DNA of 22,404 nt, taken from IMG/VR virus record IMGVR_UViG_3300005590_000081, positions 1 through 22,404 of that record. One strand, 5' to 3'. Below are positions 2,970 to 14,505 of this stretch, in pieces (positions within the stretch are counted from its first letter, which is position 1; each line of letters opens with the position of its first letter). The notes under the pieces are model-generated. The model made no database searches and was not told where the DNA came from. It saw only the letters and a program-made list of their open reading frames with translations. Made by a program: the position numbers and the translations under genes. The stretch comes from a virus.

Positions 2970-4961
2970 TTATATAGGGTTTCCAAATGCATCTACCATT
3001 TTCTTTGCGCCTGACTTATATTCTTTCATATATTTGTCTAGTGCATTTTTGACATTTGCACCATTTTCTTCATCATCTTCAAATCGCTCTCCTATGATAG
3101 TTCCTGCGGCATCTCTTATAGTCATTCTGTCGTTATCCCAGGTATCATCTACCTCTATTGTTAGGAAACCTTCAGGGAAATCATATAGTCTAGACATTTC
3201 AGCTATGGTTCTATCAAAAGCAGCTTTTATTTTACCTGAACTTTTTCCTGCATCTGCAAATAAATCACTTGTCGTAGTTGTTACTCCTTGATTATTTACC
3301 CCAAAAACTACATCGTCTAAATTAGTATATTCTCTTGACCTAGAACTAAAGTTGCCATTGTTTTGTGAAGCCTCCTGATCTTTTAAATTTGTCTTATTTA
3401 TATACTTTTCAGCTTGTTTTTTAAGTTGAGATGCAATTTGTTTACCTACATTTTTACCTAATCCATCAATTGTAATGTCAGCAAGCTTGTCTCCAGAAAA
3501 AGTGTAAAAGTTTAATACCTGTTGTGCATTATCACCTGTGCCGACAGTTTCTATAGTGTATTTTTCTACAATATCGCTTTCGTTTACTAAAGCCTGTAAA
3601 CTTTCTTCATCACCTGTAGCGGCTTGGTCAATAAGTTTTACTGTGTAACTATAATCTTCATCTTCTTTATCTCCTTTAATTTCAGCAGCGCTTTTTGCAC
3701 GAGCTTGGAACTCACTTCTTTTAGTTCCTCCATCTGTAATATCTCTTCTTAATCCTGAATAGAAACTAGTTCCAGCAATTCTCTCAGCAGCTAACTTATC
3801 ATCTTCATCTATTACAGGAACAATTTGATTGTTCTTAGACATAACCATTTGTATATACTTACTCTTTTTCCCTGTAAGCTCTTCTCCGTAAGTATCACTT
3901 TTTGGGTCTGTATCAATATATGTATAATCTATTTTTTCATCTAAATCTATTCCTTGATTTTTTAGCTCTTGAGCTTGAAACTCATTTACTGTTTCTGATC
4001 TTTGTGATTCAGGGCCATTGTCACTTAATATACTAGCCTGTCTGTCAGTAGTTGCAGCAGCAGTAGCTACCGCATCTTGGAGTAATATGTTTAATTGTGG
4101 GTTATTTCTCATGTCATCAGTAACAACACCAAGCATTTTACCAAAATTATCCATTTTCTCAAAAATCTGACCCAATGGAGTATCTTTACCAATAACTGCT
4201 TCAGTTTCTTTTGCTAAGTCTAATTTTTCTGCAGTTTGATTTCTTTTGTTATTAAAAGCTAAAACGCTCATATCCTTAACACCATCATAAGGCTGAGGTT
4301 TTCCATCAGCATCTAAATCTAAAACCCTAGTTTTAGTTCTTTCGTCAATTTTTGTTTTGAAAAAAGTTATTCTACCCATTCCATTTTCTCCAAATGTCAT
4401 TTCAGTAAAATCAGGATTACCCATTCTATCGTGTAAATCTTGAAGTGATTGGTCTACACCACCTGAAGTTGGGTTAACAAAAATTGGATTTCCATTGTTG
4501 TCTAATTTCTTTTTTCCTTCTTCATCAACTTCGTAGTATCCCTTAAGTCTTTTTAGATAGTTTTCTTTTTCTTTAGCGTATCCATTTATTTGCTGCGCAA
4601 GTATATCAAAAGATTGTTTTCCGTTTTCTTGAAATATTAAATTATCTTCAGGCTTTACCATTCCTGCTTGAACCAACCCCATGTTTCCATATAATCGGTC
4701 TTTGTAATTTGATAATGCTTTTATTGCTAAATCTCTACTAGTTTTATCACTAGGAAGATTTTCCATTGTCTTTAACTCAGCCTCTCTATATTTTTCAGCT
4801 GTGTTTGTTTTTAATTCAAGACGTTGTTTGTCGATGTTTTCTTTCCATTCTTTAACACCTTTCATTCCTCTATCAATACCTGCTAGTAGTGTCTTTTTAG
4901 TACCTACCCCTGTATTGCCTTGTTCTATCGAAAACTTTGCTGCGTCTAATGCGTTACCCAT
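2970..4961 (-). CDS. Putative internal virion (ejection) protein B
   Basis: A 663-residue protein without a function I recognise. It is strongly charged and helical, with a helical N-terminus (AGIDRGMKGVKEWKENIDKQ). A middle region with DNNGNPIFVNPTSGG looks like a turn between domains. Further charged helices and a Thr-rich linker (VTTTTSDLF, near residue 560) follow. The C-terminal part contains beta-type sequence (EGFLTIEVDDTW, then MTIRDAAGTIIG) and ends in a helix. There is no signal peptide or membrane span. It sits between the 338-residue and giant proteins with gaps of 10 and 6 bases, so the three are surely co-expressed. By order and size it corresponds to a T7 gp15-like second ejection protein; this is analogy, not homology seen. 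Confidence 0.65.
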   Translation of the reverse strand: MGNALDAAKFSIEQGNTGVGTKKTLLAGIDRGMKGVKEWKENIDKQRLELKTNTAEKYREAELKTMENLPSDKTSRDLAIKALSNYKDRLYGNMGLVQAGMVKPEDNLIFQENGKQSFDILAQQINGYAKEKENYLKRLKGYYEVDEEGKKKLDNNGNPIFVNPTSGGVDQSLQDLHDRMGNPDFTEMTFGENGMGRITFFKTKIDERTKTRVLDLDADGKPQPYDGVKDMSVLAFNNKRNQTAEKLDLAKETEAVIGKDTPLGQIFEKMDNFGKMLGVVTDDMRNNPQLNILLQDAVATAAATTDRQASILSDNGPESQRSETVNEFQAQELKNQGIDLDEKIDYTYIDTDPKSDTYGEELTGKKSKYIQMVMSKNNQIVPVIDEDDKLAAERIAGTSFYSGLRRDITDGGTKRSEFQARAKSAAEIKGDKEDEDYSYTVKLIDQAATGDEESLQALVNESDIVEKYTIETVGTGDNAQQVLNFYTFSGDKLADITIDGLGKNVGKQIASQLKKQAEKYINKTNLKDQEASQNNGNFSSRSREYTNLDDVVFGVNNQGVTTTTSDLFADAGKSSGKIKAAFDRTIAEMSRLYDFPEGFLTIEVDDTWDNDRMTIRDAAGTIIGERFEDDEENGANVKNALDKYMKEYKSGAKKMVDAFGNPI

Positions 4962-5989: not shown

Positions 5990-6400
5990 TTATAATCGTT
6001 TTATCATTTCTTTATTATAACTGTCACCTTCAATATATCCATTATCTTTATAATGTTCTATTAAAGAATCAGACTTTATTAAAGCATATGCGTATGTACA
6101 GTCTGACAGTTTTAAAGTATGCGTTAATATTTTTACAAGCTCAATTAAAGCTTCTTTTCTTTTCTTCTTGTTTTTATATTCAAAATTGGATATTATCCAA
6201 TCACACCAACCTACCTTAGAGTTAGTCATGTATATGTATCCTGCACATACAGGTATATCATTGTCATATACAATAAACCCACCTTCACCATTCTCAGGTA
6301 AAAAATCTTTTGGAGGTGCTGTCCATCTCCAATCTTTCCACCATTTAACTAAAATAGAATCGTAGTCTAAAGAATTTAATTTTCTAATATTGAATTTCAT
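5990..6400 (-). CDS. GNAT-like N-acetyltransferase
   Basis: A 136-residue protein with the general GNAT layout. The N-terminus (MKFNIRKLNSLDYDSILVKW) is the typical first strand and helix. Strands then run at about residues 41-58 (GFIVYDNDIPVCAGYIYM) and 63-73, and the long helix is at about 80-98. A C-terminal SDSLIEHYKDNGYIEGD is the classic region before the last strands, where acyl-CoA enzymes carry a Y and a G-F/Y motif. The usual acyl-CoA pyrophosphate loop (Q/R-x-x-G-x-G/A) is not visible; the matching place reads EYKNKKKRKEA. The substrate is unknown. The ATG at 6400 is preferred over an in-frame ATG at 6442 because the latter overlaps the previous gene and lies upstream of the promoter box. 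It ends one base before the next gene. Similar small acetyltransferases occur in tail regions of marine phages. Confidence 0.72.
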   Translation of the reverse strand: MKFNIRKLNSLDYDSILVKWWKDWRWTAPPKDFLPENGEGGFIVYDNDIPVCAGYIYMTNSKVGWCDWIISNFEYKNKKKRKEALIELVKILTHTLKLSDCTYAYALIKSDSLIEHYKDNGYIEGDSYNKEMIKRL

Positions 6401-6405
6401 TAACG

Positions 6406-6413
6406 CAAAGATA
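6406..6413 (-). promoter_or_regulatory. -7 box before the GNAT gene, predicted leaderless
   Basis: TATCTTTG on the minus strand is a perfect TAnnTTTG box. Only five bases (CGTTA) separate it from the ATG at 6400, so a transcript started at the usual distance would begin at or within a base or two of the start codon. No obvious -33 TTG was found. Confidence 0.5.
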
Positions 6414-6419
6414 CAAAAT

Positions 6420-7196
6420 CTAAGGAAAACTTTTAAAGACATCTGAATCTACAGTAAATAATTCAACAGCTGTCTTACTATTGTTTGTCAATTTAAACTC
6501 CATAAAGTATCCTGTTGCTCCATAAGACTCGGCAACACTATCTTTAGTTGTAAATATGTATGACCCTAAAGGAACTGTCTGTCCGATTGGTTCAAGGTCA
6601 ACTGCATCAACTTCAATTGTTTTTCTATCAGTACTAATACCTGTTATTGGGCCAATTTTTTTAATTATACCACCTAGTGGTTCTCTATAAAACACAGAGT
6701 CTCCATAATTAATAATATTACTTATTGAAATATTAAACTCTATTTGGATTAAACCTGGTGAAGCACCTGTTGATGAAGCAAATCCACCAATACCCTGTGT
6801 TGATCTTTGAGCAAAATCTTGACTACCACCAATTCTTCTTACAAAAGCAAACCAAGCTCCTTCTTTCTGCTCAAAATAAGTCTCATCCATAAATCCACTT
6901 CCTAAGTCTGTTGCTAAAGAACAATCCCAAGAATCATCACTTTCAAGCTCAATGGTTTTAAACACCTTAACAGTTGTAGGTTCTTGATTAAATACACCTG
7001 TAATTGTAGAATCATAGTCTATTCCGTAATACCTATTTCTAATTTCATTAGTATTATGTCTGTATAAACTACCTCCTTTAAAAGTATATAAATACTGATT
7101 CATTCCTAAAATAAAATCAGGCATATAACTGTAAAAAGAAGGCCATCCTTTTACTGACTCACTAAATGTTAAAGTATAATTAAGTTCTGCTGCCAT
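6420..7196 (-). CDS. Tail protein resembling the C-terminal module of nozzle proteins
   Basis: A 258-residue structural protein. Residues about 10-60 (TFSESVKGWPSFYSYMPDF, then GMNQYLYTFKGGSLYRHN) match, as I remember the family, a module found near the C-terminus of the single-chain nozzle/stabilisation proteins of crAss-like phages. The following STITGVFNQEPTTVKVFKTI and LESDDSWD continue the same pattern. Here that module is an independent gene separated from the nozzle gene by the 308-residue cysteine-containing gene. The remaining residues are beta-rich (for example PIGQTVPLGSYIFTTKDS). The likely role is a peripheral part of the tail nozzle, assembling with the 1475-residue protein. The gap to the upstream stop is 11 bases, with an A-rich leader. 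Confidence 0.75.
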   Translation of the reverse strand: MAAELNYTLTFSESVKGWPSFYSYMPDFILGMNQYLYTFKGGSLYRHNTNEIRNRYYGIDYDSTITGVFNQEPTTVKVFKTIELESDDSWDCSLATDLGSGFMDETYFEQKEGAWFAFVRRIGGSQDFAQRSTQGIGGFASSTGASPGLIQIEFNISISNIINYGDSVFYREPLGGIIKKIGPITGISTDRKTIEVDAVDLEPIGQTVPLGSYIFTTKDSVAESYGATGYFMEFKLTNNSKTAVELFTVDSDVFKSFP

Positions 7197-7207
7197 ATAT
7201 CTTTTTT

Positions 7208-8134
7208 TTAAGGGCCTACGCAGTTTTGTATACTGCTCACAACCCCATTTGTTACTGTGATTACTTGATTATTATCCATTATATAGTTTTGGTCTGCAAC
7301 TCTATTTACTCCATCGTGGTCTAAAAACACAGGGTTATTTAATATAGGGAAAGCATTTCCTGCATTTAAAAATCTACCAAAATATAAGGTGGTATCTGTA
7401 GCCTGACAAATATTACCTGCAGCTATTGCTTTTGCTTGAAATGAAGGTAAAGCCGCAGGACATTGAACAGCTATATCCCAAGCTGTTCCACTACAAGGGC
7501 CTAAAACCTGTATTGTTACAAGCGCTGGTAATGCATTTGGTTTTGGAACTATTAATAAATTATTTTGATTTTCACCAAACCTAATATCGTCTCCTGTATT
7601 TATAGTAATACTTTGTGGTGATGGAGTACCAGCTAACCAACCATTTGAATCATAACCATTTTTGAAATCATAATTAAGTGTGCTTGGCGTTGAAGGAACA
7701 CAATTGTCATTGGGGTCTCCTAATATAGTAAAGGCATCTGCAACACCACTTGTTGATTGTAAGTTACCGTCATTTGGACTTGACAGCCTATTATAATAAA
7801 CACCATCGTATAAAACTCTTATTCCGTCAGGATAACTTTTAGGATCAAAATAAATAGATATAGCTCCTGTATCGACTGATGTACTTCCTGCTGTAATCTC
7901 TAATTGATATATACCCTCGTTTCCTCCTGGAGGATTTAAAGTTCCACCACATGGTATACCGCATTCTTCACATATTGTAAGTGGCCCTAAAAGTCCATTT
8001 ACTTGATTTCTATATTCATTATTATATTGATAATATCCATCTGGTGATACAGTTGTTAAGTGTATATCATCGTATACTCTAGTTGCAGTTGCAAAACTTG
8101 ATGAGTCTATAAATTTATTTACTATACTTGGCAT
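7208..8134 (-). CDS. Cysteine-containing tail protein, possible receptor-binding or nozzle accessory protein
   Basis: A 308-residue protein of unknown exact function, placed between the nozzle gene and its apparent C-terminal module. It is rich in Gly, Ser, Thr, Asn and aromatic residues and reads as consecutive beta domains. The N-terminal part ends in a CEECGIPC motif (C55, C58, C62). The segment around SIYFDPKSYPDGIRVLYDGV resembles a small beta module seen repeatedly in marine Bacteroidota phage tail proteins. The C-terminus (QVITVTNGVVSSIQNCVGP) looks like a short repeat-like strand-turn. Eight cysteines were counted. The CxxC/CxEC theme is shared with the nozzle C-terminus. There is no signal peptide or membrane helix. 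A surface-exposed, adhesin-like role is inference. Confidence 0.65.
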   Translation of the reverse strand: MPSIVNKFIDSSSFATATRVYDDIHLTTVSPDGYYQYNNEYRNQVNGLLGPLTICEECGIPCGGTLNPPGGNEGIYQLEITAGSTSVDTGAISIYFDPKSYPDGIRVLYDGVYYNRLSSPNDGNLQSTSGVADAFTILGDPNDNCVPSTPSTLNYDFKNGYDSNGWLAGTPSPQSITINTGDDIRFGENQNNLLIVPKPNALPALVTIQVLGPCSGTAWDIAVQCPAALPSFQAKAIAAGNICQATDTTLYFGRFLNAGNAFPILNNPVFLDHDGVNRVADQNYIMDNNQVITVTNGVVSSIQNCVGP

Positions 8135-8143
8135 AATTTAATT

Positions 8144-11100
8144 TTAAGGTGTTGGTGGTTCATCACATTCACAACATGCTTCTGTTGGGCTTGCCACATC
8201 ATAGCAAAACTGCAATGGCGTTGGCTCTCTTAAATCCCAAACTAGATATATGTAACTTGCTTGATTGCTATATGTAAAGCTAGCTTGATATTCAGGGAAC
8301 GAACCTGTTGTTGGACTTGCTGTATTTAATAATGGAAGCAATGTTGCTAAGTCAGCTTCGTTATAATTTGTATTACTTACTAAATACTTAAACTTATCTT
8401 GACCTAGAACAAACTCAAATGTTTGTCCTGCATTTTGTCTGTTTTTCATTGTCACTACAGAACCTAAAGCAGGTAGTGTACCAACTGATGAACTTCCTGT
8501 TGTTTCATTAAATAAGCTAACAGCATCATCATCAAGTGTTACCTGATTTGTGCTATATGGACTTACATCAGTTCCTAAAGCCCATCTATATCTACATGTG
8601 GTTGTAAGGTCTGCATCTCCTGCAAAATTAATAACAATCTCTTTTACAGTTAATTCTTCTGCAACAGGACAATTAAAATCTATTTCATATGTAACAGGGT
8701 CAACTCCAGGAGTTAATTTAACGCTTGCGTTTGTTGGAAAGTTAGATAGTTTGTCAAAAGTTACAAACCCATTTCCTGTTACAGTTTGACTAACTACAAT
8801 CACACCATCTAATTCTACCGAAATATTTAATGGGTTGTTTGTTTCGTAATCAAATTTAACCGTTCCAATTACTGTACCTAAATCAACCTCTAAGTTATAA
8901 ATATCTGTAGAATTACTAATTAACAAAGTATATCCACATTCTCTTTCAGTTGGGGGTTGAGGTATTTTTCTTGTGTTAGAACTTAATACAAACTCATTCA
9001 TGTATGGATCAAATCCACCTAATTTTTGAGTCTCAAAAGCATCAACAAACAAATCCCTAAACCATGACCTCATACCAACTTCAGATATAACACCTAGTCT
9101 TCCACCTGTATCTCCTCTAGTTCCTGCACCCTTTAATTGAATAACAGAACTTCTTTTTGCATCAGTAAAAAAGACATCTTGTCCATAAACTGAAAAGCTT
9201 TCAGGGTTGTTACTTATTCCATACTCTTCTACTCTAGCTAACTGTGTTCCTAAAACTTCAGGTACTGAAGTAATAGCTCCTCCTGCAGCTGCATCAGATA
9301 GTAGGTTTTTTCCTACAAGTAAAGAAGATATTTTGTCTTCCTGTAAGATTAATATATCTGTTTGTCTTGAATGCATTCTTCTTATAGGCCCATAAGATGT
9401 TTCAAGTGTTTTAAAATTAGCTAACGCTAAATTAAATTGATTTAACTTATTTAAGTTTGTTTCTTGATTAAACACTCCACTATAAGTTACATCACCAAAT
9501 CTGTTAGATTCCTTGTATTGTTCTTCAGATACAGAGGTTACTTTATCACCTAAACTTAACGTAGGTTTTATTAAGGCGTCTAAAACAGTATTACTTTCTA
9601 CACCATTTCCAAAAGTAAAGCAATTAAAGAAACTTAAATCTACAATAGCAGGGTCTGTTAATGTTTGATTTTGGTCAGCATCTGCATCACCTGATAAATG
9701 AAATCCATTTACAATATCAAATGTTTGCTCGTTTTCATAATACAATTCATCATTTGCATCTAAAGGCTCTGTTTCAAATACCATTAAAGAAGTAGCTCTA
9801 TTTATTGTAACCGCAATGTTACCAAAAGAGTTTCTTTTATCAGGTGAAGAACAAGTAGGCGTTCCGTTTCTCCAAGCCATAACTTGTCTACCATCATTTG
9901 GGTCTTCTGCAAAAAATACTACGTTTTGCCCTGCCCCTCCTGGAAGTCCTATATTAAACATCGGAAAAGGAAATGTTTGCATTGTTTCATCAAATGAAAC
10001 ACTATTAATAGTATCATCTGAACCTGTTGTTGTACCGTTTGTAAAATCTATATTGTCTCCTATAGCCCAAGCATATAAACTATTGTAATCTTGAGAAGCT
10101 GTAAATCTTTTTTCATAATCATATGTACGACCACCACATTTACTTCCTCTTCTGTTTCTGTGCGCTCTTAGTTTAATCCTAATAAGACTACCTGCAGGCA
10201 CATCATAGGGTGCATACTCTAATTCACCAGGGTCACCAAAATCAGGATTATCAATATATGTACCCACCTCTGTAACACAATAGCTTCCTCTACAATCATC
10301 TTTTCTATCAATAAAAGCATTGGGTGGATAATTTGCAGCAAACCCATTTGGTTTTAATTGCATATACGTTCCCCCTAATTGTCCACATGCAGGACTTCCA
10401 TCTATAAGATTTCCATCTGCATCTTTATCGCAAAGAAAATCATCTACCTCTACACCAAATCCTAAAACTTTTGTTGATGCACAATTTAATACAGCACCAT
10501 TTGTATCGGATTTAACAAACAAAGTGTCATTATCTTTTACTTTATCTCTATTATCTCCTTCAAGTTTAAAGTATATCAAGCCTGTTTCTTCTTCTTGAAA
10601 AAATATGTTTGAGTAAATAGTTCTATATAAACCTTTTGATTCTTTTATTACGAACTTATACTTAGTTGCCCAATATGGAGGGTAGTTGTTTAACTCAACT
10701 CTAATATTATTTTTTGATATGGATTTATCACATGGTATAAAAACTGTATTGTTTGTATCAACTAAAGCAGTAGTACTTCTTCCATACTCATCCATGTATA
10801 CAATTCCTATTTCATAATCTCGATTACTATGTAAAGATTGTTTTGAACTGTCTTTGGCGTATAAACCTGTTGCATCAATAGATGATAAATACTCATAAGC
10901 AAAAACTCCTAGCGGTGCAGGAGGGGTTACTGTTTGGTCGTATTGTTCAAATTTTAAAGCAGGAAACGTAAAAGAAATTTCGTCACTACCTTGTGATGTT
11001 TCAATCAATATCCCTTGTGGTGTCCCTGTAATACCAAACCCTACATACTCCCATTCATTTTTAGTAAGTATACCACAATTAAAAAGGTCAGTTTGACTGC

Positions 11101-12571
11101 TACCTGATGTACAGTTTGACTGACAGACATTAAAACAACTTGAATCAGCTATAGCAACAAAGTCACTAACTGCATTTACAAACTCAGGGCTTGTAGCTAA
11201 TGCAAAAACACTTGGATAATCTTGCTGTATATTAAAAAGAAAAGTTCTTTCGTATGAGTTTTCAGGTTGTGTTCCATCATCATAAGATGCATCTCCACCA
11301 AAAGCATTGCTTTCGTAAGAAAAATCAACACCTATCTGTGAGCCTGCTACTAAATCTAAACCACCAAAATCAATTGTTGTTTTTGCATTGTTTACATTAA
11401 CACTACTTCCTTCTATTGTATATGTAACAGGTGATAGTGTTCCGTCAATTTCGTCTGCAGTAAGATCTTTTGATATTAAAGATAAGTTGTAATCTAAGTA
11501 TATTTCCTTACCCTGTGAGTTAACTACATCGTATCCATCAACATAATTACCATACATTAATCTATTACCCATAATTGTTTGAGCCTGAGCCTTTTTAGGC
11601 ACGTTATCAAACAACCTAAGCAACTGAGCTTCAGGTAAAGTTGTAAATATTTTTTTGTTTGTAAATGGCAATGTTTGAAAGCTATTGTCTTGCCATCCCT
11701 CGTTAATTTTATTAAATCTTTCTATAACATTGACAGTTTGACTTGTGCTAAACTTAAATATTACATCTACATCTTTTACATTTTTACCACCTGTATTAAA
11801 TGTAACATCGGTAGTATTAAACTGATTAAGCATTCCATCATTATCATAGGTGTCATAATTTATTTCAAACGGCCCTGGAGTAAAAGCAACTTGACTAAAC
11901 GGTGATAAAGCTGAATACTCTCCATCTTCATATTGCCACCTATAAGCAAAGCTTAAAAAAAGTTGCTCCATGTAATTTTCACCACCACCTAATTGATAAC
12001 TATCTAAAGTTGGAGGGCTTAATGGAGGGGCTAATATAACCCCTATATCTTGCTCTGTAATCTCATCAACTGTTGTAAAGTTGTTTGGCCTTAAGTAAGT
12101 TCTATTTACATTTATTTTTCTAGGAGGATTTATGTTGTCTGTAAAAAACAATAAATCACCTATTAAATTAACTCCATTAACTAAATAATCTTCATCAAAA
12201 TTTAATATAGACGTAGATATTACATGATAAAATAAAACAAACGTCCTAGTATTATATGATACTATCAAATCTACTTTTCCTGTGGATGACAAAGTATTTG
12301 CCTTGTCGTGTACAAACCAATAAATGGTTTCGTTTGCACCATCTTCATAAGCACCAATACATCTAGCGCTAAGACTTAATGGTTGATTTAAAAATTCTAA
12401 CTCAACTACTAAATCATTTCCTTTTGAGTTTTCTACAGCACCTATTTCAGTACCTTCTGTAGAACCCAATCTTACATTTAATGCATCTATGTACTCGCCT
12501 TGAGGAACTAGTCGTTCATCAATGCTTTTATTCATTCTACCTGCAACAAAGTTCTTTTGAATCTTAGCCAT
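8144..12571 (-). CDS. Large tail nozzle / stabilisation protein
   Basis: A 1475-residue virion protein, probably the beta-rich nozzle at the tip of a short tail. The N-terminus (NFVAGRMNKSIDERLVPQGE, then YIDALNVRLGSTEGTEIGAV and EN.KGN) is the hallmark of tail nozzle/stabilisation proteins in crAss-like and related podoviruses. Near residues 1100-1200 it has another family pattern (VEEYGISNNPESFSVYG, VFFTDAKRSSVIQL, LGGFDPYMNEFVLSSN). I count about 21 cysteines, clustered around CFNVCQSNC, DDCRGSYC and the extreme C-terminus ACCECDEPPTP, which is unusual for a cytoplasmically assembled particle. After residue ~1200 the chain continues into Ig-like beta sequence rather than the expected KGW-type module, which is instead found in the 258-residue gene two places downstream. 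The ATG lies one base after the preceding stop. Confidence 0.85.
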   Translation of the reverse strand: MAKIQKNFVAGRMNKSIDERLVPQGEYIDALNVRLGSTEGTEIGAVENSKGNDLVVELEFLNQPLSLSARCIGAYEDGANETIYWFVHDKANTLSSTGKVDLIVSYNTRTFVLFYHVISTSILNFDEDYLVNGVNLIGDLLFFTDNINPPRKINVNRTYLRPNNFTTVDEITEQDIGVILAPPLSPPTLDSYQLGGGENYMEQLFLSFAYRWQYEDGEYSALSPFSQVAFTPGPFEINYDTYDNDGMLNQFNTTDVTFNTGGKNVKDVDVIFKFSTSQTVNVIERFNKINEGWQDNSFQTLPFTNKKIFTTLPEAQLLRLFDNVPKKAQAQTIMGNRLMYGNYVDGYDVVNSQGKEIYLDYNLSLISKDLTADEIDGTLSPVTYTIEGSSVNVNNAKTTIDFGGLDLVAGSQIGVDFSYESNAFGGDASYDDGTQPENSYERTFLFNIQQDYPSVFALATSPEFVNAVSDFVAIADSSCFNVCQSNCTSGSSQTDLFNCGILTKNEWEYVGFGITGTPQGILIETSQGSDEISFTFPALKFEQYDQTVTPPAPLGVFAYEYLSSIDATGLYAKDSSKQSLHSNRDYEIGIVYMDEYGRSTTALVDTNNTVFIPCDKSISKNNIRVELNNYPPYWATKYKFVIKESKGLYRTIYSNIFFQEEETGLIYFKLEGDNRDKVKDNDTLFVKSDTNGAVLNCASTKVLGFGVEVDDFLCDKDADGNLIDGSPACGQLGGTYMQLKPNGFAANYPPNAFIDRKDDCRGSYCVTEVGTYIDNPDFGDPGELEYAPYDVPAGSLIRIKLRAHRNRRGSKCGGRTYDYEKRFTASQDYNSLYAWAIGDNIDFTNGTTTGSDDTINSVSFDETMQTFPFPMFNIGLPGGAGQNVVFFAEDPNDGRQVMAWRNGTPTCSSPDKRNSFGNIAVTINRATSLMVFETEPLDANDELYYENEQTFDIVNGFHLSGDADADQNQTLTDPAIVDLSFFNCFTFGNGVESNTVLDALIKPTLSLGDKVTSVSEEQYKESNRFGDVTYSGVFNQETNLNKLNQFNLALANFKTLETSYGPIRRMHSRQTDILILQEDKISSLLVGKNLLSDAAAGGAITSVPEVLGTQLARVEEYGISNNPESFSVYGQDVFFTDAKRSSVIQLKGAGTRGDTGGRLGVISEVGMRSWFRDLFVDAFETQKLGGFDPYMNEFVLSSNTRKIPQPPTERECGYTLLISNSTDIYNLEVDLGTVIGTVKFDYETNNPLNISVELDGVIVVSQTVTGNGFVTFDKLSNFPTNASVKLTPGVDPVTYEIDFNCPVAEELTVKEIVINFAGDADLTTTCRYRWALGTDVSPYSTNQVTLDDDAVSLFNETTGSSSVGTLPALGSVVTMKNRQNAGQTFEFVLGQDKFKYLVSNTNYNEADLATLLPLLNTASPTTGSFPEYQASFTYSNQASYIYLVWDLREPTPLQFCYDVASPTEACCECDEPPTP

Positions 12572-12572
12572 A

Positions 12573-13499
12573 TTATTTTATCCACTTGTTTTGTCCCCTT
12601 AGATTCATTAATAATCTCCCTGGATGTATATTGCTCAATCTTAATTTTGCGTTCCTTAGAAGGGCTGATTTTTCCTTTCTAGCTCTATTTATGATATACT
12701 CTTGTATTCCATATTTACTTGAAAGAATAACAAATTTCATATATGAATAAATAAACTCTTCAAAAAGCTTATTAACGCTTATCTCTGAGTCAACTCCATT
12801 TTCCATACCATCTGATACGTATTCCAATACACAAAGCTCACCTGCCATATCAGAACTAAAGTTTATTACTCCTGACTTTTTGTTTATTTTAAAAGTAGGA
12901 TTTGCATTTGCTGTTTCTGTATTCAATCCATATCTTGCACCTACAGGATACTCAAAATACCAAAGGCCATTATAAAAATATCCCTCTTGTCCATTGTATT
13001 GACTTTGTTCGTTTAAGTAAATACTTTTCTTACCACCTGTAATTCTTTGTAAGTCTACAGTTGAAGTAGATGGTTTTAGTATTTTACCCTCATGGTCAAA
13101 CAGTATTCTACAATTATTATCTTGTAAATACGCATCACTCCAATTTGTTTGTATATTTTCAGTTAGTGGTAGTAATGTTCCGTTTTTGTATAAAGAAATT
13201 CTTACCCAATTTACATAGTCATGTGGCAATACATATCTTAATGTATCACAAACTTCTAATTCTAAGATTTTAATTTCTTTCATTGAATCGTAGTTCAACT
13301 CCTGAATAGCTCTTTTAGCATGAAATATAATATTAAATCTTTCAACATTATTTATCAACTTGTCATTTCCAACATACATTAAAATGAAATTATTTACAAT
13401 GTCATTTAATGATACATATTGATATGAACCCCAATTTTCATCTAATGTGTTTGGGTTTCCTGTATTTTCGTAATACTGATATTCTGTTATATATGCCAT
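12573..13499 (-). CDS. Putative tail adaptor/ring protein 2
   Basis: A 308-residue structural protein between the first connector candidate and the nozzle protein. The helix at about residues 50-70 (NNVERFNIIFHAKRAIQELN) followed by strands around residues 77-102 (KILELEV, then LRYVLPHDYVNWVRIS) matches the general arrangement of gp4/gp11-like tail adaptor (tail tubular A) proteins: a helical bundle docking onto the portal and a beta part contacting the nozzle. A second helical bundle near the C-terminus (SVNKLFEEFIYSYMKFVILS) is followed by a basic end (RNAKLRLSNIHPGRLLM). An AAGGA sequence precedes the ATG but is part of the upstream gene's last codons. The call is from architecture and position, not a detected signature. 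Confidence 0.7.
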   Translation of the reverse strand: MAYITEYQYYENTGNPNTLDENWGSYQYVSLNDIVNNFILMYVGNDKLINNVERFNIIFHAKRAIQELNYDSMKEIKILELEVCDTLRYVLPHDYVNWVRISLYKNGTLLPLTENIQTNWSDAYLQDNNCRILFDHEGKILKPSTSTVDLQRITGGKKSIYLNEQSQYNGQEGYFYNGLWYFEYPVGARYGLNTETANANPTFKINKKSGVINFSSDMAGELCVLEYVSDGMENGVDSEISVNKLFEEFIYSYMKFVILSSKYGIQEYIINRARKEKSALLRNAKLRLSNIHPGRLLMNLRGQNKWIK

Positions 13500-13502
13500 A
13501 AT

Positions 13503-14480
13503 TTATCCTTCTTGTTGGTCTGATTCTTTTTCTTCCATTTTTCCAAATTGTGCTAATGCTGTTTCTCTTATAGATACTCCTGCGTACTGAAGAATTTTAT
13601 TAACTAAATTAGTCTGGTCAGAATCAGGTAATTCAAAATCTTGATAATCAGGAGCTGTTTCATCAAAACTAGGTTCTCCTCCTGTAATAATATTAAAATA
13701 TGTCCAATTAGGATCTTTAGGGTATCTTATATATTGACCTATAATTGTTCCTTCTGTTGTTAAGGTATTTGGATATACAGTAATGGTATTTCCATAAACA
13801 GTACTATTTGCTCCACCTAAAACATAGGCTGGGAATGTTGAATTCGGTTGAGTTAAAGGTGAAGAATTCAAATAAAATATTTTGTTTTGAGAAACTCTTT
13901 CAACTTCAGTTATTCTTGATGTACTTAAAATAGCATAACCTTGATCTTGAACAATACCTATATTTGAAGATATTGTTAATTGATTTATACTATCAACACT
14001 AACAACAAAAGCACTATCACCTGTAACAATTACTGAAGGGTCAAGAGGGTTTGTAACACTCACAACCAACATTCCTGGCTGAACACCATCAGCTATAAAG
14101 TCTGCATTTTGGTCTACTATTCTATTTAGAGAAACTACTGTAACTGCACCTTGCGTAATAAACAATGGATAGTAATTTATCTTATTCATTAAATAATAAT
14201 CTTCAGGCATCTCGTAGGTATTTAGCCCATTTGTCACTAAAGATTTAGTAGATGAAAAACTATCAACAACTTCTTCTATTCCTTTTAAAATATCTGCGTA
14301 CCCTGATCCTGAAACTCTAGCATTTTGTTTTACTATCTGTGAATTATATTGATAAAAATAATCTTCAAAAATATCTAATTGTGCTTGCTTTGCATATAAG
14401 TTAAAATCATTAGGTGTTATATAACCGTAATTATTTTTATTTGCGATAGAAAGGACGGTAGCTCTTACTGTATTTATCAT
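13503..14480 (-). CDS. Putative head-tail connector/ring protein 1
   Basis: A 325-residue structural protein, first gene of the tail unit. The N-terminus is helical (MINTVRATVLSIANKNNYGY then DFNLYAKQAQLDIFEDYFYQ), a layout seen in adaptor proteins that sit under the portal. A central beta-rich segment of about residues 115-175 contains DQNADFIADGVQPGMLVV and a later FVVSVDSINQLTIS, a repeated phage structural pattern of a pGd turn followed by Val/Ser strands. The acidic C-terminus ends in MEEKESDQQEG. I chose the ATG at 14480 because the in-frame GTG at 14498 overlaps the promoter box itself. The next gene follows after 3 bases. A ring or adaptor role is inferred from position and layout. 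Confidence 0.7.
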   Translation of the reverse strand: MINTVRATVLSIANKNNYGYITPNDFNLYAKQAQLDIFEDYFYQYNSQIVKQNARVSGSGYADILKGIEEVVDSFSSTKSLVTNGLNTYEMPEDYYLMNKINYYPLFITQGAVTVVSLNRIVDQNADFIADGVQPGMLVVSVTNPLDPSVIVTGDSAFVVSVDSINQLTISSNIGIVQDQGYAILSTSRITEVERVSQNKIFYLNSSPLTQPNSTFPAYVLGGANSTVYGNTITVYPNTLTTEGTIIGQYIRYPKDPNWTYFNIITGGEPSFDETAPDYQDFELPDSDQTNLVNKILQYAGVSIRETALAQFGKMEEKESDQQEG

Positions 14481-14497
14481 ACCTATTAATCTTTTCA

Positions 14498-14505
14498 CAA
14501 AGATA
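14498..14505 (-). promoter_or_regulatory. -7 box of the connector/tail unit promoter
   Basis: TATCTTTG on the minus strand is a perfect TAnnTTTG box, 17 bases before the ATG at 14480. It directly follows the terminator T-tract; no clear TTG is seen at the -33 distance. The same 13-base string TTTTGTATCTTTG recurs at 6406-6418 before the acetyltransferase gene. Confidence 0.6.

Follow-up and report, generated by a model that had tools for sequence, protein, structure and literature searches.

The muzzle, or tail nozzle, is known as a highly conserved gatekeeper that crassviruses make as a single chain. The locus described here raises the question of whether the nozzle of this virus is made in two pieces with a further gene lying between them, and of what such a break would bring to the virus. 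The sequence-only reading had proposed a modular tail tip, in which one part of the nozzle was freed so that a variable protein could be inserted.

The window analysed is a whole virus record (IMGVR_UViG_3300005590_000081; 22.4 kb) and contains a minus-strand head-tail block with the terminase, the portal, a capsid-type protein, more virion structural proteins and the nozzle. Three ORFs lie on this strand, encoding proteins of 1475 aa (8144-12571), 308 aa (7208-8134) and 258 aa (6420-7196), as had been read from the sequence. These are referred to as NOZ (the nozzle), the slot protein (the product of the middle gene) and MOD (the module). Their stops are TAA, TAA and TAG and the gaps between them are 9 and 11 nt; the three are therefore not one ORF with readthrough of recoded stops. 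The features of the locus are as follows.

8960-12571, minus strand: nozzle/muzzle core, NOZ residues 1-1204, with the N-terminal ring-joining/propeller part, the middle region and the propeller blades as far as the first half of the interrupted one (hhalign to gp44; phrog_14478).
8978-8995, minus strand: strand EFVLSS, NOZ 1193-1198, the final propeller strand ahead of the break (aligned just before gp44 1198; equivalent to hairpin strand 243-250 of L167).
8147-8959, minus strand: C-terminal extension of NOZ, residues 1205-1475, two predicted beta-sandwich domains, missing in joined forms (locus counts; fold from the relative L063).
8165-8176, minus strand: CCEC motif at the NOZ C-terminus (sequence).
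7208-8134, minus strand: middle (slot) gene, 308 aa (ORF; beta-rich model of a 59%-identical fused relative).
7955-8134, minus strand: conserved N-terminal domain of the slot protein, about 58 aa, with a Cys at its end (profile table of 157 loci; sequences).
6420-7196, minus strand: detached C-terminal nozzle module MOD, 258 aa, comprising the other half of the interrupted blade, the final blade and the C-terminal part (PF25729; gp44 profile alignment; phrog_18548, phrog_38031 and the C-terminal part of phrog_14478).
7155-7178, minus strand: strand YTLTFSES, MOD 7-14, the first strand beyond the break (equivalent to hairpin strand 253-260 of L167; gp44 1198 onward).
12573-14498, minus strand: two virion structural genes upstream of the nozzle, 308 and 331 aa (phrog_13977, phrog_14543), taken, by gene order, to be the tail ring/adaptor genes associated with the nozzle.

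Other genes flank this block. A small gene (5990-6442) that matches phrog_17252 comes after MOD and shares 23 nt with its 3' end; its equivalent in the Manatee Spring podovirus MW202828 is annotated as 'N-terminal acetyltransferase complex subunit'. Downstream of the tail genes lie two further large ORFs (3-2963 and 2970-4961) without a PHROG match; their position suggests ejected cargo proteins.

Nozzle identity and the position of the break

MOD was found to match the Pfam family PF25729 (crAss_MUZ_C) with an E-value of 7.6e-14 and 52.4 bits against a cutoff of 27, and no Pfam match was obtained for NOZ or the slot protein. In phrog_14478, the N-terminal part is matched by NOZ and the C-terminal part by MOD. 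The sequence link to the muzzle gp44 of phicrAss001 was obtained by profile-profile alignment only, with a profile of nine Crassvirales muzzles in which cr6 and cr109 were kept although their translations contain internal stops under table 11. When solved structures were searched with NOZ, the slot protein and MOD as single sequences, and with the module profile, no useful match emerged. In the hhalign comparison, NOZ 1-345 aligns to gp44 1-314 (probability 97.7, E 1.5e-12), NOZ 1047-1204 to gp44 1049-1203 (probability 82.6) and MOD 5-122 to gp44 1198-1333 (probability 98.2, E 3e-14). The NOZ and MOD alignments thus meet on gp44 without a gap, with the split point at approximately 1198-1203. 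No hhalign alignment to gp44 was found for NOZ residues from about 346 to 1046, the region of IG1, IG2 and the crass fold in gp44.

The same C-terminal part is present within the single-chain nozzles of two isolates, at residues 1078-1323 of 1324 in phi38:1 and 1237-1469 of 1470 in elemoA. In L007, which encodes three proteins 100% identical to those of the window, the module profile matched the separate ORF alone; NOZ has no KGW-type module of its own. The proposals that the nozzle lacks this module and that the 258-aa protein corresponds to the C-terminal part of full-length crAss-like nozzles were both borne out, the latter by the alignment to such nozzles that had been recommended as a check. 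Because of the module-profile and C-terminal matches, the two outcomes that would have spoken against a split, a KGW module within NOZ or membership of MOD in an unrelated and always separate family, did not arise. The window nozzle has the homologous N-terminal region of the gp44 family, and the MUZ_C domain lies on the separate 258-aa chain. As these parts are encoded by two ORFs and not in one polypeptide, it is a two-chain variant of the gp44 family rather than a standard member. The nearest annotated relatives by nozzle are in Pachyviridae, Pervagoviridae and Elemovirus, and the taxonomy lines of their records do not name Crassvirales.

The position of the cut was examined in an AlphaFold model spanning the junction of L167, a single-chain relative encoded on a contig of an Aquimarina algiphila genome. 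The model covers part of the propeller only and has a mean pLDDT of 74 and a pTM of 0.43, with low values in the first 110 residues or so and 82-89 in the blocks at the junction. Strands 243-250 (EYLLVITD) and 253-260 (EYMTIGFS) form a predicted hairpin whose two-residue turn falls exactly at the junction. The model matches the phicrAss001 muzzle (7qok) with a Foldseek value of 8e-13, and its residues 85-491 superpose on gp44 1031-1371 (Z 9.2, 265 residues, 17% identity) with an rmsd of 15 Å, so that the global arrangement of the muzzle is not reproduced. Matches to the nozzles of SU10, T7, P22 and other podoviruses were also found. Because the hairpin sits at the junction and the model matches muzzles and nozzles, the cut is placed inside a propeller blade. 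Taken together, sequence and predicted model show both the split and its position at a beta-hairpin turn within a blade, and strand order in the model suggests that the turn is the one between the second and third strands. By general propeller topology, this turn would share a face with the inter-blade loops.

Split and joined relatives, the nozzle extension and the slot gene

The loci examined, drawn from scans of viral and genome contigs and from annotated phages, number 173, and 157 of them contain MOD. The adjoining propeller part is also contained in 142 of them, and 106 of these are distinct by exact sequence, many being near-copies. A total of 98 distinct loci are split and eight are joined, the latter including L006 (Maribacter phage Panino) despite a probable upstream frameshift. 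The slot gene is separate in 78 split loci, fused to NOZ in 11 (six, plus L029, L031, L032, L038 and L039 shown by BLAST) and undetected in nine. A scan for further single-chain relatives returned one locus, identical to L167 over the query. In L171, L172 and L173, which are divergent, the N-terminal nozzle part lies on a separate upstream ORF while the propeller part and MOD are joined, which is a different break. The nozzle frame of Panino is broken at 8561-8790; this was considered as a second, upstream break and rejected, as the missing residues occur in another frame and point to a probable frameshift in the record.

Isolates were found in both states. Four Cellulophaga phages (phi13:2, phi18:3, phi19:3 and phi46:3) have the split pair, and in the three examined for the spacing of nozzle end and module, only 3 nt separate the two chains and nothing lies between them. 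No slot gene was detected in phi19:3. Gundel_1 belongs to Pachyviridae like the split Cellulophaga phages but is joined (1386 aa); it stands outside the counts for the 106 loci. For phi18:3, gp114 (NOZ) and gp115 (MOD) are each recorded with the remark 'annotation based on experimental MS/MS proteomics analysis', and by this record annotation both chains are shown to be present in the virion of this one isolate.

The constant companion of the break is a set of extra domains on the new NOZ C-terminus. A tail of 107-910 aa extends past the last propeller strand in 97 of the 98 distinct split loci, the exception being L056 with a visibly broken NOZ ORF. In the joined loci, only 2-17 aa separate the two profiles in seven of eight cases. 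The 145-aa gap in the eighth, L172, was considered as a domain inserted at the hairpin and set aside, since it reflects a truncated profile match and an insertion further upstream; the hairpin linker itself is about 25 aa by eye. Among the loci examined, none of the joined forms had an entire domain inserted at the hairpin.

The CCEC tail described for the window nozzle is present, and a CC.C motif occurs in the NOZ tail of 62 of the 78 distinct loci with a separate slot gene. A cysteine-based dock is not universal, as the motif is missing in the other 16, in most of which the slot protein is short (55-66 or 119-128 aa). In the fused L063, the slot domain comes directly after the motif. The extension and slot of L063 are predicted to be mostly beta-sandwich (mean pLDDT 88.7), and their PDB matches (Foldseek/VIA) are weak and of mixed kinds, with a Z of 9.6 at best to unrelated beta-sandwiches. 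We set these matches aside as functional evidence. The description of the nozzle end as Ig-like is thus partly borne out by the predicted beta-sandwich domains, whose matches are weak and generic.

Nine proteins were searched for domains, and clear adhesion-type domains were found at this junction in relatives. The phi19:3 NOZ tail contains a Big_9/cadherin domain, and in L120 the phage nozzle chain ends in a tail (6774-8600) with TSP1 (TSP1_spondin) and VWA domains. On the other side of the break, MOD of L099 (7864-9741) has a 378-aa N-terminal extension containing DUF5122 beta-propeller repeats; MOD homologues with 130-380 extra N-terminal residues exist, and long extensions also occur in L035, L036, L158, L162 and L163. 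Muzzle models were matched in the joined L173, and no domain above the curated cutoff was found in the remaining tails and extensions among the nine.

The slot ORF ranges from 55 to 584 aa in the 78 distinct loci, and it reaches 1052 aa in L036, where NOZ is cut by the contig end. One search found the slot gene in 37 loci. The N-terminus of about 58 aa is also found by itself as a mini-protein, as tandem copies, joined to differing C-terminal parts, or fused to NOZ immediately behind its CC.C motif. Divergence was measured against the window in the 39 loci that hold every part and whose slot ORF spans 290-340 aa. The median identity is 76% for the NOZ N-terminus, 82% for the propeller part, 52% for the extension, 58% for the slot protein and 63% for MOD. 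Slot identity is below that of MOD in 34 of the 39 loci, below the NOZ N-terminus in all 39 and below the extension in 24; in the other 15 the slot is not faster than the extension. By these values the slot and the extension are both fast-diverging and neither is always the faster.

Explanations of the split

The reading that we favour, and consider likely, is a two-chain nozzle of the crassvirus type with an expandable junction for surface-binding domains. The muzzle would be made as two polypeptides obliged to assemble in trans, the large chain providing everything up to the first strands of the interrupted blade and the 258-aa chain providing the rest of its strands, the last blade and the ring-closing C-terminal segment. 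Assembly of NOZ and MOD into one blade from two chains is very likely. Both new chain ends would lie at the hairpin tip, where they could serve to hang extra domains; in the window these would be the two beta-sandwich domains on the NOZ C-terminus, followed by the separately encoded 308-aa slot protein. The slot protein probably docks at the CCEC-bearing end of NOZ through its small conserved N-terminal domain, and its fast-changing remainder is probably exposed on the tail tip and in touch with the host surface. That the extension and slot protein bind surfaces is plausible. Of the modular tip proposed at the outset, the two-gene split, the 258-aa C-terminal part and the variable gene between them hold. 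The idea that the module was freed to let a protein insert is not supported in that form, as nine split loci, including phi19:3, have no detected middle gene and three of the four Cellulophaga isolates have nothing between the chains.

A rival account concerns history and is compatible with the two-chain nozzle. The ancestor of the aquatic group may already have been split and have carried the extension, with joined forms (Gundel, phi38:1, elemo and L167) re-fused or recombined, or there may have been two independent splits. The tree of the shared parts has 37 rows, the 57 available being reduced by 19 near-duplicate rows and gp44. The split or joined label changes state three times on it, and a tree with all split rows in one clade is disfavoured (AU p 0.02, for a test group named after the first tree was seen). 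A homologous NOZ extension is present in both split clades, which argues for shared origin or exchange. Against these points, the tree is that of the muzzle itself, with long branches, and because the Crassvirales muzzles examined are single-chain, the deep state was probably joined. We regard this history as a serious candidate that falls somewhat short of even chances.

Plain gene fission without function, in which a cut was tolerated at an exposed turn and the middle gene is an unrelated passenger, would fit the coexistence of split (phi19:3) and joined (Gundel_1) forms even in Pachyviridae and the nine split loci without a detected slot gene. It is unlikely in view of the tail of at least 107 aa found at the break in all but one of the split loci, and of a slot protein with homologues throughout the group, a retained N-terminal domain and fusions to the nozzle in 11 of 98. 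Slightly less probable again is a removable blade, in which the small chain holds the gate shut and host binding by the extension or slot protein levers the blade out; if true, receptor recognition would be directly coupled to gate opening in one split domain.

It is more doubtful still that the 258-aa protein is an independent tail-tip protein, similar to the nozzle C-terminus but with no part in completing the propeller. Its separate gene and the extra 130-380 N-terminal residues of some homologues would agree with this, but the preceding nozzle lacks exactly this part, no split locus was seen whose nozzle also keeps a copy, and in 77 of the 78 loci with a separate slot gene no more than 12 aa separate the start of the module from the hairpin strand. 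Finally, a sequencing error, recoded stop or programmed frameshift can practically be dismissed: the L056/L097 nozzles and Panino do look frameshifted, but the split recurs in 98 distinct loci and four isolates with TAA stops, varying inter-gene spacing and differing chain overlaps.

Comparison with known systems

No description of a split muzzle was found in the literature searched, the coverage of which was limited. If the two-chain reading holds, a widespread group of aquatic phages makes one blade of this gatekeeper from two chains, and cut ends loaded with changeable domains would be a route for a conserved gating machine to gain variable host-contact parts with its core undisturbed. Cultured phages of the Cellulophaga phi18:3 type would offer a natural two-part nozzle for testing assembly and gating.

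The muzzle gp44 of phicrAss001 (Crassvirales) shares the N-terminal region, the propeller blades and the C-terminal MUZ_C domain with the window nozzle, in addition to the structural match over gp44 1031-1371. It is, however, a single chain of 1371 aa with no domain at the hairpin, whereas the window has two chains with the extension and the slot gene there. Length variation among crassvirus muzzles is placed in the crass and IG2 regions in the accessible part of the published account (Nature 2023, PMC10172136).

The split pair of Pachyviridae (phi13:2, phi18:3, phi19:3 and phi46:3) has the same break, a separate module of 241 aa and, in phi19:3, a homologous extension. It differs in the absence of a slot gene and, in phi19:3, in the added Big_9/cadherin domain. 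MW202828 has the same three-gene order as the window (1551, 183 and 267 aa), and its slot N-terminus is 34% identical over 58 aa, whereas its slot protein is only 183 aa with a different remainder. This protein (L002, 12665-13216) is labelled 'putative glycosidase', for which PHROGs give no support.

The nozzles of SU10, T7 and P22, which the predicted model matches, resemble the window nozzle in having a propeller core with inserted domains. In SU10, as described, the inserts fall between blades 2 and 3, and a short fibre is bound by a dock loop of blade 1; these inserted domains stay in one chain, whereas the nozzle of the window is encoded as two.
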